A DNA stretch of 8,027 nucleotides from Candidatus Omnitrophota bacterium (GTDB taxonomy: Bacteria; Omnitrophota; JACPQZ01). The DNA lies in NCBI GenBank assembly GCA_016190205.1, contig JACPQZ010000014.1, positions 1 through 8,027 of the forward strand. Reading direction: 5' to 3'. The notes below the pieces were generated by a model. That model searched no databases. It was given only the letters and a program-made list of their open reading frames with translations, and was not told the origin of the DNA. Shown here one piece after another: positions 1-6,176 of this stretch (the first letter of the stretch is position 1; each line of letters begins with the position of its first letter). The position numbers were made by a program, and so were the translations under genes.

Positions 1-493
1 CCTTCTTGATCAGGTTGCTCATCTTCTCAAGGTAGTTGGCCAGGCGGTCCAGGATCTCGTCCAGGGTCCCGCTCGATTCCCCCGCCCGCACCATGCTGAC
101 GTAGAGATTGCTAAAGACGGGTTTGTGCCGCGAGAGGGCATTGGAGAAACTCGATCCCTTTTCTATCTCCGTCTTCACGAGCAGGATGATATTTTTGAAA
201 TGCGTATTGTCCACCTGTTCATGCAGGATCTCGAGTCCCTGGATAATGGGGATTCCGGAATCGACCATGGTGGCGAGCATGCGCGTAAAGACAACGAGCT
301 CATCGAGGCTCACATGGCCGCGGGAAAAGCGGGCAAGGGTCTGGCTCGCGCCTTTCTTATCTTCCCTCACGTTTACAACCACGAGACCCTGCTGGCGCAG
401 GGCCTCGATGAGGCCCTTCACATTCTCAAACTCGAGCGAGCCCGTGACCGTCTTACCCTCGGTATCCTTGGCGATATAGGCAAATTGAGGCAT
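1..493 (-). CDS. pilC: Type IV pilus inner-membrane platform protein PilC (GspF family), N-terminal part, truncated by window edge
   Basis: PilC/GspF is the polytopic inner-membrane platform that couples the PilB ATPase to pilin assembly. The frame is open from ATG at 493 to the window edge, giving 164 complete codons. It begins MPQFAYIAKDTEGKTVTGSL, the typical GspF opening. The first T2SSF domain follows, with the hallmark segment AGESSGTLDE at residues 137-146 just after SNLYVSMVR. The window ends at about the point where the first membrane helix of the family would begin, so no TM segment is seen here. About 40% of a usual 400-residue protein is present. The start overlaps the stop of the upstream ATPase gene as TAATG, with a GGAGAGGAA purine-rich site just before it. 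This supports translational coupling of motor and platform. A GspF of a type II secretion system is the alternative, because the family name cannot be settled from this half. Confidence 0.93.
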   Translation of the reverse strand, partial: MPQFAYIAKDTEGKTVTGSLEFENVKGLIEALRQQGLVVVNVREDKKGASQTLARFSRGHVSLDELVVFTRMLATMVDSGIPIIQGLEILHEQVDNTHFKNIILLVKTEIEKGSSFSNALSRHKPVFSNLYVSMVRAGESSGTLDEILDRLANYLEKMSNLIKK

Positions 494-2202
494 TATTCCT
501 CTCCTGTCACGCTTAACACTTCTTCCAAAGTGGTCATCCCCAGCTTGAAGCTCTCAAGCGCGTTTTCACGCAAGGAGCGCATGCCCTGGGTGCGGGCATA
601 CCTTAAGATCTCGTCTTCTGAGGCGCGCGCCACGATCATCCTGCGGATTTCATCGTCGATCGTGAGGGTCTCCAAAGTGCCCATGCGGCCGCGGTAGCCC
701 GTCTCGCTGCAGCGCGCACAGCCAGACCCCCGGTAAAAAACAGGCTTATCCTTTTTGGAAAAATCTAGCCCCACGCGCTCGAGGACCTCTCTCGGCACCT
801 CTTCGGGCTCCGAGCAGGAGGGACAAACCCGCCGGCAAAGCCTTTGCGCCGCGACGAGGACGAGGCTCGCGGAAATAAGAAAGGGTTCCACCCCCATGTC
901 CATGAGGCGGGCGATCGCTCCCGCCGCGCTATTCGTGTGGAGCGTGCTAAAGACGAGCTGTCCAGTTAGGGAGGCCTTGATCGCGATATCGGCCGTCTCG
1001 GCGTCGCGGATCTCGCCCACGAGCACCACGTCCGGGCTCTGCCGCAGGATCGACCTGAGCCCGCTCGCGAACGTAAGCCCTATGTCGGTATTGATGGGTA
1101 TCTGCGTAATCCCTTCCACCTGGTATTCGACCGGGTCTTCCACCGTGATGATGTTGCGATCCGGGGTATTCAGCCGGTTTAAGACCGAGTAAAGCGTCGT
1201 GCTCTTTCCGCTCCCCGTCGGTCCCGTCATGAGGATCATTCCGTACGGCTTCTTGATGGCCTCCTCGAGCGCCTTAAGGGGTCCCGGGAGAAAACCCAAT
1301 TCCTCAAGACTGACTTTGATATTCGCCTTATCCAGCGCCCTTAAAACCACTTTTTCTCCATGCATGACGGGCAGGACCGACACACGGAAATCCACCTCGC
1401 GGTTTGCGAGACGAATCTTGAAACGGCCGTCCTGGGGCTGGCGGCGGTCTGCGATATTGAGATTGGACATGATCTTGAGGCGCGTCGTGATGGCGCTCTG
1501 CGCCACCTTAGGGGGGGTATAGGCATCAATCAGGCGGCCGTCCACGCGAAAGCGCACCCGCAGGCGCTTTTCATAGGGCTCGAGATGGACGTCGCTCGCC
1601 CTCTGCTTGAGGGCCTCCATGAGGATGAGATTTACGATGCGGATGACAGGGGCCTGATCCGAATCGGAGAGCGAGGAGTCGATCTTTTCCTCCCCCTCGT
1701 CCTCCACCACCTTCATCTCTCCCAAATCCGACTTATCCTTTTCCAGCAGCTCTTCCATCCTTTCGGGCGCTTCGTAGTATTGGTGGATGGACTCCAGGAT
1801 CTGGCTCGGGATTCCGATGATGGGTTTGATCTGACAGCCCGTGATGACCCTCAAATCATCCAGGGCGAAAACATTTAAGGGATCGGCCATGGCCACCGTG
1901 AGGGTGTCCCCGATCTTGGAGATGGGGAGCACCTGATAGTGTCTCGCGACGCGCGCGGGGATCATGCTGATGAGTTCTTGACTGATCCGGTAGCGCGAGA
2001 GATTGATGGGCGGGATGTCCAGCTCCTCCCCCAGGCAGGCCACGAGGACGTCTTCCTTCACGAGCCCCTTTTTGATGAGGATCTCGCTGATACTGCCCCC
2101 CTCTGCCTTCTGGATCTTGACCGCCTCGTCCAGGGCCTTCTGCGTCACGACCCCGTTCTTGACGAGGACCTGGCTCAAGCGCTCCTTAAGCGACTTGACC
2201 AT
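493..2202 (-). CDS. pilB: PilB/GspE-family assembly ATPase (copy adjacent to pilC)
   Basis: This is a hexameric cytoplasmic ATPase that powers pilin or pseudopilin polymerisation through PilC. It has 569 residues, the normal PilB length. The N-terminal MshEN/T2SSE_N domain covers about residues 1-145. An acidic linker follows at about 146-180 and the N2 domain at about 185-290, with ASDVHLEP at 202-209. The motor has Walker A GPTGSGKST at 327-335, an Asp box around ITVEDPVEY at 352-360, Walker B within DVVLVGEIRDAET at 391-403, and a His box STLHTN at 419-424. Two CxxC pairs (C460/C463 and C495/C498) form the zinc site typical of PilB/GspE and absent from PilT. The usual LRQDPD reads LRQSPD here (S389). 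The start is supported by GAGGAGG about nine bases upstream. The gene overlaps the end of the preceding ATPase gene by 17 bases and its stop overlaps the pilC start. GspE of a type II system is the alternative name. Confidence 0.95.
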   Translation of the reverse strand: MVKSLKERLSQVLVKNGVVTQKALDEAVKIQKAEGGSISEILIKKGLVKEDVLVACLGEELDIPPINLSRYRISQELISMIPARVARHYQVLPISKIGDTLTVAMADPLNVFALDDLRVITGCQIKPIIGIPSQILESIHQYYEAPERMEELLEKDKSDLGEMKVVEDEGEEKIDSSLSDSDQAPVIRIVNLILMEALKQRASDVHLEPYEKRLRVRFRVDGRLIDAYTPPKVAQSAITTRLKIMSNLNIADRRQPQDGRFKIRLANREVDFRVSVLPVMHGEKVVLRALDKANIKVSLEELGFLPGPLKALEEAIKKPYGMILMTGPTGSGKSTTLYSVLNRLNTPDRNIITVEDPVEYQVEGITQIPINTDIGLTFASGLRSILRQSPDVVLVGEIRDAETADIAIKASLTGQLVFSTLHTNSAAGAIARLMDMGVEPFLISASLVLVAAQRLCRRVCPSCSEPEEVPREVLERVGLDFSKKDKPVFYRGSGCARCSETGYRGRMGTLETLTIDDEIRRMIVARASEDEILRYARTQGMRSLRENALESFKLGMTTLEEVLSVTGEE

Positions 2203-3937
2203 TGAGCGGCGCCTCCTCTTGGGTCAGCCTCATAATCTCCTCCAGACTCGTGATCCCGCGCATGACCTTGGCGAGGCCGTTTTCCCTTAAAGTTCCCATG
2301 CCTGCCCGGCGCGCGTAAAGCCTCAAGTCAGATTCCGGCACGCCCCGCATGATGAGGGCCCGGACCTCGGGCGTCACAACAAACGCCTCGCCGAGCCCCA
2401 CGCGCCCCCGGTAACCTGTATTTCCGCACTCGCCGCACCCTTGCGGCTGGTAAAACTTAGGCCTCTTTCCCGACGCGGCTAAGAGCGGCTCTAAATTGAG
2501 AGACTCCACAAGCCTCGGATCGGGCTCAAAGGGTTTTCTACAGCCCTGGCAGAGGCGCCGGATGAGCCTTTGCGCCAGGACGAGGACGAGCGACGATGAA
2601 ATCATGTACGGCTCGACGCCCATGTTGGCCAGGCGGACGACCGTGGCCGTCGCGTCGTTCGTATGCAAGGTGGAAAGGACGAGATGCCCGGTGAGGGCCG
2701 CCTTGATGGCGATATCCACCGTCTCCGAGTCCCGGATCTCACCGATCATGATGACATCCGGATCCTGCCTCAAAATGGAACGCAGGACGCGCGCGAACGT
2801 AAGCCCGATCTCCTCCCGCACCGCCACCTGATTGATGCCGTCAAACTGCTGTTCCACTGGATCTTCGACCGTGACCAGGTTTTTATCCACCGAGTCGATC
2901 ATCTTTAGAACGGAATAGAGCGTGCTGCTTTTTCCGGCACCGGTGGGGCCGCAGACTAAGATCATGCCGTGCGGGCGCTGGGCCGCCTGCTTGAGGGCCT
3001 CTAGGGGCTCCTGCTCAAAACCCAGCTCCTCGATTGAATATGCCGAGGCGGAGCGGTCCATAATCCTCAAGCACGCCTTTTCCCCAAAGTAGGACGGGAT
3101 GATGGAGACGCGGAAATCGATCTCGCGGTCGCGCAGTTTAATCCGGAAACGTCCGTCCTGCGGCAATCGGTGCTCGGCGATATCGAGGCGGCTCAAGATC
3201 TTGATCCTGCCGATCAAGGCGGGATGGATGTGCCGGGGCGGGTTCTGACCTTCCCGCAATATCCCGTCCACGCGGTAACGCACGTTCACAGACCTTTCAA
3301 AAGGCTCGATCAGGATATCGCTCGACTTAAGCCGGATCCCCTCGGCCAGGATCATATGGGTGAGCTTGACCACGACGCCTTCATCGGCCACCTGCAGTAC
3401 ATCCATCGCGGACGTGTTGGCAAAAGAGCTCTCCCCGCTCAAGACCTCCAATTTGCCCTTCTGAACGTCCTCCATGAGCTCAGCTATGACCTGCGATCCT
3501 TCGGCCTCATAATAACGCTGATAGGCCTCCTGGATAGTCCCCTCTGAACCGATGACCGGCTGGATGTCGCAGCCGGTCATGACCTTCAAGTCATCCATGG
3601 CCAGGACGTTTAGGGGATCGCTCATCGCCACGGTGAGCGTATTGCCTATCTTCGAAATGGGGATGAGACCATAATGCTTGGCCACATGCTTGGGGATCAT
3701 GGCGATGACGCCGGGATCCACCGTCAGGTGCGAGAGATTGATCGGGGGAATGTTGAGCTCCTCGCTCAAGACCCCGATCAAAGTCGTCTCATCGACGAAT
3801 TTTAAATCCACCAGGATGCGCCCGAGCTGGCCGCCCTTCTCCTTCTGCGCGCGCAGGGCCTGCTCAAGCTGTTTATCCGTGAGCAACTTGCGCTTCGCGA
3901 GGATGTCTAAGACGCGTTGTCTAAGTGATCTGACCAT
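2186..3937 (-). CDS. pilB: Second PilB/GspE-family assembly ATPase, tandem paralogue
   Basis: This 583-residue paralogue of the downstream ATPase has the same architecture. The MshEN-type N-terminal domain spans about residues 1-145, followed by a linker and an N2 domain. The motor has Walker A GPTGAGKSS at 330-338, an Asp box around VTVEDPVEQ, Walker B within DVIMIGEIRDSET at 394-406, and a His box STLHTN at 422-427. Zinc-site CxxC pairs are at C463/C466 and C501/C504. By hand, 35 of 50 residues match the downstream copy over residues 81-130. In the N2 signature usually read ASDIHIEP, the histidine is Leu209 (SSDILIEP); the other copy keeps it. All core ATPase motifs are intact, so it should hydrolyse ATP. 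The start lies six bases after the stop of the MshEN-only gene and has no strong Shine-Dalgarno, so it may rely on coupling. The two copies could serve different pili, or form a mixed or two-step motor. The symbol is tentative and gspE is equally possible. Confidence 0.93.
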   Translation of the reverse strand: MVRSLRQRVLDILAKRKLLTDKQLEQALRAQKEKGGQLGRILVDLKFVDETTLIGVLSEELNIPPINLSHLTVDPGVIAMIPKHVAKHYGLIPISKIGNTLTVAMSDPLNVLAMDDLKVMTGCDIQPVIGSEGTIQEAYQRYYEAEGSQVIAELMEDVQKGKLEVLSGESSFANTSAMDVLQVADEGVVVKLTHMILAEGIRLKSSDILIEPFERSVNVRYRVDGILREGQNPPRHIHPALIGRIKILSRLDIAEHRLPQDGRFRIKLRDREIDFRVSIIPSYFGEKACLRIMDRSASAYSIEELGFEQEPLEALKQAAQRPHGMILVCGPTGAGKSSTLYSVLKMIDSVDKNLVTVEDPVEQQFDGINQVAVREEIGLTFARVLRSILRQDPDVIMIGEIRDSETVDIAIKAALTGHLVLSTLHTNDATATVVRLANMGVEPYMISSSLVLVLAQRLIRRLCQGCRKPFEPDPRLVESLNLEPLLAASGKRPKFYQPQGCGECGNTGYRGRVGLGEAFVVTPEVRALIMRGVPESDLRLYARRAGMGTLRENGLAKVMRGITSLEEIMRLTQEEAPLNGQVA

Positions 3938-3943
3938 GGCTGC

Positions 3944-4537
3944 TTAGTTTTTCTTATCCGGCTCTTTCGTCCCCCCGCTTCCCTCTTCCGGCGCGGGTCC
4001 TTCCGCATCCTTCTTGGCCTGACGCTCGCGGGCCACGTTGGCGAAATCCACCTTGGCCACATTTTCGTCGGCGCTCCACTCCTCTGTCCCCATGGCCCGG
4101 TGTGATTTATAAAAACGGTTGAGACTTTCCCTAATCTCGGTGCCCGTCGCGACAAACGTCTGGACCTTGCAGCTCGTGGTGTACTCGATGTCCTTGATGG
4201 CCAGGGCATTCGTGGGATCCGCCATGACGACCGTGAGGGTATTTCCGATACGGTCGATGGGGATCGCGTGATATTGCCGGGCCACATTTTCCGGAATGAG
4301 CTTTAAAATGTCCACCTCGATGTGGCAGCTCGAGAGGGGGAGATAGGGGTAACCAAACTGGGTGGCGAGCGTCGTCACGATCTCCTGCTCCGTGACCACT
4401 TTCATCTTGACCAAGATCTGGCCCAAGAGCCCCCCCTCCTTCTGCTGCGTCTTGAGGGCCCGGTCCAGCTCCTCCTGGGTGATCTTGCCCTGCTCGAGAA
4501 GCATCTCGCCCAGCAATTTCTGCACCACTCTCTTCAT
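3944..4537 (-). CDS. Stand-alone GspE/PilB N-terminal (MshEN-type) domain protein, no ATPase domain
   Basis: This 197-residue soluble protein consists of one GspE/PilB N-terminal domain (about residues 1-145) and a charged tail. The first 24-residue MshEN-like repeat begins LLGEMLLEQGKIT (8-20) and ends at Gln31. The second begins LLGQILVKMKVVT (37-49) and ends at Gln60, with Lys in place of the glycine of the first repeat. The C-terminal half of the domain contains IPENVARQYH (81-90) and VMADPTN (104-110). It aligns without gaps to residues 1-145 of both neighbouring ATPases (23 of 50 identical to the pilC-adjacent copy over 81-130). No Walker motif follows. The tail from about 150 is rich in Lys, Glu, Gly and Pro and probably disordered. 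In MshE-type ATPases this domain binds cyclic di-GMP, so a ligand-sensing or adaptor role is plausible but inferred. The ATG is preceded by AAGGAG, which overlaps the stop of the upstream GGDEF gene. Confidence 0.85.
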   Translation of the reverse strand: MKRVVQKLLGEMLLEQGKITQEELDRALKTQQKEGGLLGQILVKMKVVTEQEIVTTLATQFGYPYLPLSSCHIEVDILKLIPENVARQYHAIPIDRIGNTLTVVMADPTNALAIKDIEYTTSCKVQTFVATGTEIRESLNRFYKSHRAMGTEEWSADENVAKVDFANVARERQAKKDAEGPAPEEGSGGTKEPDKKN

Positions 4538-4546
4538 GCGGACTCC

Positions 4547-5971
4547 TTAAGCCGTAACCTGATTTCGGCCGGATTTCTTGGCCTGCAGCAGGGCCACGAT
4601 GGCCTTGTTGACGAGCTCATCCCCCGTGAGGCCGTCGATGGGGTTGGCGCTCACCCCCGCGCTCAACGTCACCCTTCCGTCCGGTAGGCTCCCCATGCCG
4701 GGAAACGACTGCCGGGCCACCTCTTTTCGGATAAGCTCGGCCGTCTGCAGGGCCTCCCCCTTATTTTTCTCCGGCAGGATGATGGCAAAATCGTTTTTCC
4801 CGCTCCTGCCTGCCTTGCAGATATCGTCGATGTTCTTCGAGATCACCTGACCGATTTTTTTCAAGAGTTCCTGCGCCGCAACAGGGGAATTGACGCGAAC
4901 GTACTCATCGTAATGATCGATATTTAAGTGCACGTATGAACAGGGCCTCTGAAAAAGTATCGCCCTCCGGATCTCCTCGCTTAATCGTTCCCGGATGAAG
5001 CGCTCATTGTAAAGCCCCGTCACTTCATCCCGTATGGCAAGCTCCTTGTTGCGCTTGACCAAAAAGTCGTTTTCCAGGGCGATCCCCACCTGTTTTTGAA
5101 AGATGCGGACGACCTCAAGATCCGCAGGCGGGAAGACAAGGTCGGGGTCTTTAGACCCCACGAAGATTAGACCTTTGAGCTTATTCTGAAAAACCACCGG
5201 GGCCAAGACCCCGGCGCCCATGCCGTACTTCTTGAAAAAGTCCTCGGCCAGGATATTTTTCCGCTGCTCCCCGTCAAAAATAACGAGGTCGCGCGTCCTT
5301 TCCATGCGCATCAAGAGCTCGCGATAGGGCGACCAATCCACCGGCGGCGCAGCGCCTTGAGCAATCCCCCTGGAAAGCCGCACAGAAAGATCCTCCCCGC
5401 CCTGGATGAAAAGGACATAGGCATTCGCCTCGGTGGCCTGCTGCAGCTTATCCAAGACAAGCTCCAGAACCACGTCCAGCTGGACGGCCTGGGACATGAG
5501 CGTCGTGACCTGAAGCACCCCGGAGAGTGCGGCCACCTTCTTGTTAATTTCCTGATTGATGACCCTCACCCTTTCTCCATAGGTATTGAGCTCGCTCATG
5601 TTTTTCTTGATCCGGTCCGCCATCTCGTTCACCGCAAGACCCATGTCCCCCACTTCATCTTCGCCCTGGACCTCGATCACGCGCTCCACGTCGCCGCTGG
5701 CGATGCTCCGGGCATGATAGGCAAGCCTGACGACAGGATCCACGATCCTTTTGGTCAGCACCACGCCCAAAAGCGAAATCAAAATTGTGATCAGCACAAC
5801 GGCCGTGAGATTGATCATTTCAACCGGGCTCTTCACGCCCGAAAAAACATACCGCGAAATAAGCCAGCCGATCACGAGGAGCGGGATGATGGACATGAGG
5901 CAATACGCGGCCACCACCTTGTGCCTTATGCCGCGGGGCATGAGACTCAAGCCCCCCCTAGTCCCCGTCAT
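4547..5971 (-). CDS. Membrane HAMP-GAF-GGDEF sensor protein with degenerate GGDEF signature
   Basis: This 474-residue inner-membrane signalling protein has TM1 at about 19-41, a very short periplasmic loop (about 12 residues), and TM2 at about 54-73. A HAMP domain follows at about 74-127 (Pro79, EDEVGDM at 104-110). A coiled linker leads to a GAF-like domain at about 150-300 and a GGDEF fold at about 310-474 that opens with RDEVTGLYNERF (314-325). The signature loop reads RSGKNDF (389-395) where active diguanylate cyclases have RxGG(D/E)EF. The first metal-binding segment, usually DIDxFKxxND, reads NIDHYDEYVR (350-359), and GHxxGD is lost. The RxxD inhibitory site is not visible either. Cyclase activity is therefore unlikely; a role as a receptor, scaffold or protein-interaction module is inferred. 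The start is backed by GGAGG about seven bases upstream. The gene overlaps the HTH gene by 14 bases and is followed nine bases later by the MshEN-only gene. Confidence 0.88.
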   Translation of the reverse strand: MTGTRGGLSLMPRGIRHKVVAAYCLMSIIPLLVIGWLISRYVFSGVKSPVEMINLTAVVLITILISLLGVVLTKRIVDPVVRLAYHARSIASGDVERVIEVQGEDEVGDMGLAVNEMADRIKKNMSELNTYGERVRVINQEINKKVAALSGVLQVTTLMSQAVQLDVVLELVLDKLQQATEANAYVLFIQGGEDLSVRLSRGIAQGAAPPVDWSPYRELLMRMERTRDLVIFDGEQRKNILAEDFFKKYGMGAGVLAPVVFQNKLKGLIFVGSKDPDLVFPPADLEVVRIFQKQVGIALENDFLVKRNKELAIRDEVTGLYNERFIRERLSEEIRRAILFQRPCSYVHLNIDHYDEYVRVNSPVAAQELLKKIGQVISKNIDDICKAGRSGKNDFAIILPEKNKGEALQTAELIRKEVARQSFPGMGSLPDGRVTLSAGVSANPIDGLTGDELVNKAIVALLQAKKSGRNQVTA

Positions 5972-6176
5972 GAGTCCCTCCTACGACGCCGGGCGACGGT
6001 GGCTCACAGCGGCTGACGTCGTCAATGTACTTGCTTAAATCCTCCTCCCGGATCCTGTATCCGCCCCGTCTTCCCACTTTAAAGGCAGGGAGGTGCCCCG
6101 TCCGGATGAGCCTGCGTATATGCTCTGTGCTCACCCGCATGATTGAGGCAACTTCTCTTACGACCAGGAGCTTCAT
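5958..6176 (-). CDS. Small excisionase/MerR-like helix-turn-helix DNA-binding protein
   Basis: This 72-residue protein matches the excisionase-family HTH (HTH_17) pattern. LLVVREVASIMRVS (3-16) and THI-type second helix residues TEHIRRLIRTGHLP (17-30) form the helix-turn-helix. AFKVGRRGGYRIREEDL (31-47) forms the wing, and SKYID ends the domain. The last 20 residues are Pro/Gly-rich and probably unstructured, and their codons overlap the start of the GGDEF gene by 14 bases. Despite the family name, nothing nearby suggests a phage or integrase, so a transcription regulator of the operon it heads is more likely. Autoregulation through the AT-rich gap upstream is an inference. The ATG at 6176 has only a weak GGTGAG site close upstream, but starting there gives the complete domain. 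Confidence 0.85.
   Translation of the reverse strand: MKLLVVREVASIMRVSTEHIRRLIRTGHLPAFKVGRRGGYRIREEDLSKYIDDVSRCEPPSPGVVGGTHDGD

Follow-up and report, generated by a model that had tools for sequence, protein, structure and literature searches.

The stretch of DNA analysed here (the window) comprises the whole of contig C3, 8027 bases, of a 1.65-Mb draft genome of Candidatus Omnitrophota, and includes a gene for a stand-alone MshEN protein of 197 amino acids (aa). The protein consists of an entire MshEN fold and lacks an ATPase domain. Judging from its pocket residues, it very probably binds cyclic di-GMP (c-di-GMP), and it seems rather likely to be a trans-acting c-di-GMP receptor subunit that would regulate the pilus-extension motors PilB1 and PilB2, encoded directly behind it. 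Our computations show the fold, an intact pocket, the operon and an opposite conservation of the site in motor and stand-alone copies, and they suggest that the sensor became detached from the motor and acts on it as a separate protein.

A stand-alone MshEN protein with an intact pocket

A sequence-only reading of the window had proposed that the open reading frame at 3944-4537 contains both 24-residue MshEN repeats and no motor, which Pfam and NCBIfam profiles and an alignment to MshE confirmed. The protein matches Pfam MshEN (E=5e-19) and the NCBIfam c-di-GMP_motif profile NF053729 (62.6 bits, with a cut-off of 38), while the Pfam and NCBIfam profiles found no ATPase domain (T2SSE) in it, so that it is not a PilB/GspE ATPase.

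3944..4537, minus strand: stand-alone MshEN protein, 197 aa, presumed c-di-GMP receptor (Pfam MshEN, NCBIfam c-di-GMP_motif, AlphaFold2 model, 48/58 phylum genomes)
4445..4516, minus strand: repeat I (residues 8-31), LLG...L...L..Q (alignment to the MshE motif)
4358..4429, minus strand: repeat II (residues 37-60), LLG...I...L..Q (G39 and Q60 invariant in 110/110 proteins)

The MshEN site consists of two 24-residue repeats, RLGxxLLxxGLLxxxxLxxxLxxQ, joined by a 5-residue spacer (PMC5013675). In the stand-alone protein, repeat I (LLGEMLLEQGKITQEELDRALKTQ) and repeat II (LLGQILVKMKVVTEQEIVTTLATQ) are separated by QKEGG, and this 24 + 5 + 24 layout equals the spacing in Vibrio cholerae MshE (PMC5013675). 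Within each repeat, the glycine at position 3 forms backbone hydrogen bonds with guanine, positions 2, 17 and 21 build up two leucine triangles, and the glutamine at position 24 holds ribose and phosphate (PMC5013675). Both repeats of the stand-alone protein contain the glycine (G10, G39) and the glutamine (Q31, Q60), and the hydrophobic triangles are intact (L9, L24, L28, L38, I53, L57); in a study of Thermus PilF domains, two Ile-for-Leu changes in repeat II were found to cost together only 2.4-fold (PMC12002112). The contact set is completed by position 1, which is Leu in both repeats (L8, L37).

Compared with MshE structures, all contact residues are thus kept except at position 1, where the Arg of the original consensus is absent, a point that the sequence-only reading had missed. 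Leu at this position fits the extended (R/K/L)LG consensus and is no defect, because PilF GSPII-B, a 6-nM binder, has Lys and Leu there and its K167L version, with Leu at both positions, binds at 2 nM (PMC11731258); the exchange is therefore tolerated or even favourable in that domain. Ser for Arg at position 1 of repeat II, on the other hand, abolished binding in a resurrected GSPII-A construct (PMC12002112). Comparison of the contact residues and the position-1 Leu with PilF GSPII-B indicates that its pocket residues are those of the family's tightest known binders.

An AlphaFold2 model based on 39 sequences has a mean predicted local distance difference test score (pLDDT) of 85, with values of about 94-98 at residues 11-140, and its predicted fold is that of MshEN, comprising a four-helix N-subdomain and an alpha/beta C-subdomain. 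The closest solved structure is MshE with c-di-GMP (5HTL, Z 18.1 over 138 residues). PilF GSPII-B with c-di-GMP also lies near the top, including its K167L mutant (8PE0, Z 16.4), and XpsE and GSPII-A rank behind (Z 13-14). The first residue of helix 1 is residue 9, just within repeat I, as opposed to residue 5 in a model of the PilB1 N-domain, and the non-binding XpsE and GSPII-A have been described with a longer helix 1 (PMC5013675, PMC12002112). This difference is only suggestive, since in GSPII-B, too, ligand binding unwinds a helical turn (PMC11731258) and an apo binder can resemble a non-binder. Beyond residue 147 the sequence is charged and the model has low confidence, in agreement with the charged disordered tail of the earlier reading; this tail lacks conservation, however, since many relatives stop directly after the domain.

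Degenerate sites in the motors of the window

Two ATPases follow the stand-alone protein, both with intact catalytic motifs:

2186..3937, minus strand: PilB1 extension ATPase with degenerate MshEN repeats (Pfam T2SSE and MshEN; Walker motifs)
493..2202, minus strand: PilB2, second extension ATPase, with degenerate MshEN repeats (Pfam T2SSE and MshEN; Walker motifs)

Their repeats I and II begin with RVL and QLG in PilB1 and with RLS and SIS in PilB2, exactly the replacements of the position-3 glycine that had been read from the sequence. A further change had gone unnoticed: the closing glutamine of repeat II is replaced by Glu in both ATPases. The Gly-to-Leu exchange in repeat I of PilB1 is the same as MshE G11L, which abolished ligand stabilisation (PMC5013675).

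Opposite conservation across Omnitrophota

Relatives came from three sources: 58 genomes of the phylum, a further search directed at a divergent family, and a scan across 84,980 species genomes, of which the best 80 loci were taken. The scan pattern was built from a 12-sequence alignment; when all 39 stand-alone proteins were aligned, no stretch was conserved enough for a degenerate pattern. The 58 genomes and the species-genome scan gave 109 distinct loci besides the window. The comparison genomes searched fall in the same phylum as the window, and among the best 80 loci of the species-genome scan nearly all named relatives come from metagenome-assembled genomes of Candidatus Omnitrophota. 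A plasmid search returned only distant matches (<35% identity), several of them annotated as PilB/GspE-type ATPases.

The position-3 glycines of repeats I and II are present in 109/109 and 110/110 stand-alone proteins, as compared with 1/102 and 12/102 for PilB1 and 0/93 and 24/92 for PilB2, and not a single cassette ATPase has both. Reducing the set to one protein per 70%-identity cluster left the picture unchanged (stand-alone 53/53 and 53/53, PilB1 1/50 and 4/50, PilB2 0/47 and 10/47). The last glutamine is found in 108/110 and 110/110 stand-alone proteins, 88/102 and 1/102 PilB1 and 61/93 and 26/93 PilB2 copies. Mean entropy in the stand-alone family is 0.45 bits at the contact sites versus 1.50 elsewhere (p=0.00014), and it is not significantly reduced at these sites in PilB1 (p=0.067) or PilB2 (p=0.44). 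Repeated in about 100 related loci, this retention and loss at the same positions is far beyond chance. The glycine counts across about 110 loci thus support the earlier proposal that the stand-alone copy would have kept the sensing site and the motors lost it. Position 1 is Leu in repeat II of 104/110 stand-alone proteins; in repeat I it varies (often Gln, also Lys, Arg and others), and the Leu of the window is not general.

The motors themselves retain the Walker A and GExRD motifs (96 and 95 of 100 in PilB1, 91 and 90 of 92 in PilB2), for which reason most cassette motors look active. Profile scores alone cannot separate the two groups, as 23/29 PilB1 domains match the NCBIfam c-di-GMP_motif along with 39/39 stand-alone proteins, and a FastTree of 145 MshEN domains did not separate stand-alone, PilB1 and PilB2 copies into clades, about 140 residues carrying too little signal.

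The gene order is equally constant. The plan, a pseudo-GGDEF or PilT gene followed by MshEN-PilB1-PilB2-PilC, occurs in 48/58 phylum genomes, in each of which the stand-alone gene and the tandem motor pair thus co-occur. PilB1 lies immediately 3' of the stand-alone gene in 105/109 loci; the upstream neighbour is PilT in 48, a GGDEF protein in 39 and a contig end in 19. Among the ten genomes without the stand-alone gene, nine have no tandem PilB1-PilB2, and in the tenth a contig end interrupts the region; one of the nine (G009) has the arrangement ATPase-PilT-ATPase. In another genome (G013, contig C39, about 24184-25305) we found pieces of MshEN and ATPase sequence interrupted by stops which, given that genus mates carry the cassette, may be remnants of a lost one. 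Family f2 includes proteins of about 500 aa (L188, L189, L192, L195, L197-L199) with a C-terminal MshEN, in which both glycines are kept and the last glutamine is changed to His or Lys.

Site loss in motors with and without a stand-alone MshEN neighbour

Where no stand-alone gene lies next to them, 40/56 MshEN domains of ATPases in the phylum retain the two glycines, a sample taken from the stronger matches to stand-alone queries and hence biased towards intact sites, as opposed to 0/196 of those with such a neighbour (194 from the cassette, one from contig C37 of the window's own genome and one from G051, contig C27). In both cases outside the cassette, a degenerate ATPase stands beside an intact or nearly intact stand-alone MshEN.

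On C37 (L084:5181-8909), two small stand-alone MshEN proteins of 216 and 163 aa, both with their glycines in place, precede a 730-aa ATPase with degenerate MshEN repeats and a C-terminal PilZ domain, following the same rule as the cassette in a different operon. A 730-aa ATPase with two tandem intact-repeat MshEN domains is encoded in a genome without the stand-alone gene (G034, L207:4493-6682). The window's own genome also encodes a 565-aa PilT-type ATPase (C67, L089:8433-10127) whose N-terminal MshEN has apparently intact repeats (PLG and PIG, both glutamines); the MshEN domain is normally absent from retraction ATPases. Two further proteins of this genome, of 772 and 1128 aa (C35, L090:6417-8732 and C34, L091:6448-9831), have an MshEN domain with one degenerate repeat fused to long charged coiled-coil-like regions.

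Operon context and c-di-GMP signalling

The minus strand carries every gene of the window, namely MrdA (PBP2), RodA, an HTH_17 protein, a HAMP-GAF-GGDEF protein, the stand-alone MshEN protein, PilB1, PilB2 and PilC. Besides those listed above, the following features were delineated:

2..493, minus strand: PilC platform protein, truncated by the contig end (Pfam T2SSF)
4547..5971, minus strand: HAMP-GAF-GGDEF membrane protein, pseudo-cyclase, with GKNDF at the GGDEF site (Pfam)
5958-6176, minus strand: HTH_17/excisionase-family DNA-binding protein, 72 aa, between the RodA and GGDEF genes, overlapping the start of the GGDEF gene

The stand-alone open reading frame runs from an ATG at 4537 to a stop at 3944, 9 bases after the end of the GGDEF gene and with an AAGGAG Shine-Dalgarno sequence 5 nt ahead of the ATG. 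PilB1 begins 6 bases past it and has no clear Shine-Dalgarno sequence of its own, which together suggest that PilB1 is translationally coupled to the stand-alone gene. In two relatives, the interval of the 72-aa HTH_17 gene holds a radical SAM protein instead, and in one relative a receiver-like and HD-GYP (HD_5) protein, possibly a c-di-GMP phosphodiesterase, is inserted between PilB2 and PilC (L055:12057-13130).

The genome encodes intact diguanylate cyclases and HD-GYP proteins. Five of its nine GGDEF matches have an intact GGEEF site, and the HHExxDGxGYP-type signature was read directly in three of four HD-GYP matches; a search of the genome for EAL domains found none. Ten PilZ matches and 13 MshEN domains were also found. 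The GGDEF site of the protein upstream of the stand-alone gene, GKNDF in the window, is canonical in only 8/77 relatives and varies otherwise, so that this protein is mostly a pseudo-cyclase.

Comparison with known systems

The stand-alone protein resembles V. cholerae MshE and other PilB/MshE ATPases in its fold, in its two repeats with a 5-residue spacer and in all contacts except position 1. In MshE-type proteins, however, the sensor is fused to the motor that it controls, whereas Omnitrophota encode it on its own and the copies still fused to the two motors are degenerate. Thermus thermophilus PilF offers a parallel of binding and non-binding MshEN domains (GSPII-A/B/C) serving one pilus motor, and it shares the lack of Arg at position 1, having Lys/Leu there with nM affinity (PMC11731258, PMC12002112). 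In PilF, all three domains are part of the ATPase chain, while the Omnitrophota copies are on separate proteins.

In Xanthomonas citri, PilB has no c-di-GMP site of its own; the receptor FimX acts on it in trans through PilZ, and the GGDEF domain of FimX has no cyclase activity (PMC8389850). The combination of a site-less PilB, a separate receptor and an inactive GGDEF domain recurs here, as far as the sequences tell; the receptor in FimX-PilZ is the FimX EAL domain acting via PilZ, whereas the Omnitrophota candidate is a free MshEN domain unrelated to both. MshEN domains off a motor ATPase that serve as c-di-GMP receptors are known from the NfrB glycosyltransferase and Bdellovibrio Bd2402 (PMC5013675), but these are fused to other output domains and lie outside a motor operon with degenerate motor copies. 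A literature search, thin on subscription journals, turned up no account of a stand-alone MshEN protein acting on PilB, nor of one accompanying site-less PilB motors throughout a phylum, and c-di-GMP, MshE and PilB go unmentioned in the main text of an Omnitrophota survey (PMC10066038).

Candidate roles of the stand-alone protein

We favour a receptor acting in trans on PilB1 and PilB2 on the grounds of the invariant pocket, the degenerate sites of the two motors, the fixed gene order, the co-occurrence, the intact cyclases of the genome and the FimX-PilZ precedent. In such a mechanism, the free MshEN copy would be a high-affinity receptor whose site is kept under strong selection, while PilB1 and PilB2 keep the fold but have lost ligand-binding glycines and the last glutamine. 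c-di-GMP would fill the two-repeat pocket of the free domain, fixing helix 1 as well as the angle at which the two subdomains meet. This could alter the contact of the free domain with the N-terminal domains of PilB1 and PilB2, or with the stator or platform on which they dock, and thereby permit or stop pilus extension, in either direction. The ligand-blind motors would keep their MshEN domain, probably as a docking surface.

Several observations weigh against this reading. The NF053729 c-di-GMP profile still scores both window ATPases above its cut-off, so that a complete loss of binding there is something we infer. A good motif is no proof of binding either, since T. thermophilus GSPII-A with a restored motif still does not bind, owing to helix 1 and subdomain contacts (PMC12002112). 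The linkage between site loss and a stand-alone neighbour comes mostly from one inherited cassette, with only two cases beyond it (p=0.09), and a Fisher p-value for the whole contrast is for this reason no fair measure of independent evidence. Finally, two ATPases of the window's own genome (C17 and C26) are degenerate without a stand-alone neighbour, showing that degeneration also arises for other reasons.

A c-di-GMP receptor with another target encoded in or near the operon is an unlikely but serious alternative; candidates are PilT, PilC, PilM and the membrane-bound pseudo-GGDEF protein, or the receptor might link cell-wall synthesis (MrdA-RodA) to pilus assembly. PilT or the pseudo-GGDEF protein lies directly upstream in 48 and 39 of 109 loci, and N-terminal domains of related ATPases dock on PilM/GspL-type proteins, the structures 4PHT and 2BH1 being among the structural matches of the model. 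The invariable direct neighbour is PilB1, however (105/109), and the complementary site loss sits in PilB1 and PilB2, which PilT, PilC or RodA cannot explain.

It is less probable still that the protein is mainly a structural subunit, for instance a spacer or cap in a PilB1/PilB2 assembly, with c-di-GMP as a constitutive cofactor that carries no signal. A low-nM affinity, as the position-1 Leu would predict, could fill the site at ordinary c-di-GMP levels, which are quoted as 0.05-10 µM (PMC5013675). This affinity is a guess, though; many relatives have a residue other than Leu at position 1 of repeat I, and the intact cyclases and HD-GYP proteins suggest changing ligand levels.

The other half of the sequence-only reading, a decoy or buffer soaking up c-di-GMP near the motors, gained no specific support. 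The protein is small, likely abundant from its strong Shine-Dalgarno sequence and predicted to have a tight site, but a decoy would guard a ligand-binding target and neither PilB1 nor PilB2 has a good site; a sponge, moreover, needs neither a conserved second subdomain nor a fixed gene order, and we regard this role as very improbable. A functionless truncated PilB gene left by duplication has next to no probability and is contradicted by the conservation: the protein resembles a PilB N-terminus (TIGR02538) and has no motor, yet it is an intact short open reading frame with its own Shine-Dalgarno sequence and invariant ligand residues in about 100 loci, at pairwise identities down to 22%. The conservation pattern led us to set aside both the relic and the simple decoy.

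Beyond the receptor acting in trans, we put forward tentatively, and with more doubt than belief, a split pilus motor in which an MshEN subunit that binds the ligand and two paralogous ATPases blind to it might form a single heteromeric extension motor. The free subunit would take the c-di-GMP input for both ATPases and the membrane-bound pseudo-GGDEF protein would recruit or gate it, a phylum-wide division of labour that has not been described before.

Implications for pilus control in Omnitrophota

Host attachment is the presumed task of type IV pili in the mostly ultra-small, uncultured Omnitrophota (PMC10066038). The stand-alone protein is small and can be tested from synthetic DNA without culture. 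PilB1 and PilB2, having kept the fold after the loss of the site, amount to a natural experiment on the role that MshEN plays in the motor besides ligand binding. Known c-di-GMP control of pilus motors works either through a fused sensor, as in MshE, PilF and Myxococcus xanthus PilB, or through an unrelated receptor with an adaptor, as in FimX-PilZ. If the trans-acting receptor proposed here is real, it would represent a third form, in which the motor's own type of sensor is a separate gene and the fused copies are blind, fixed across a phylum.
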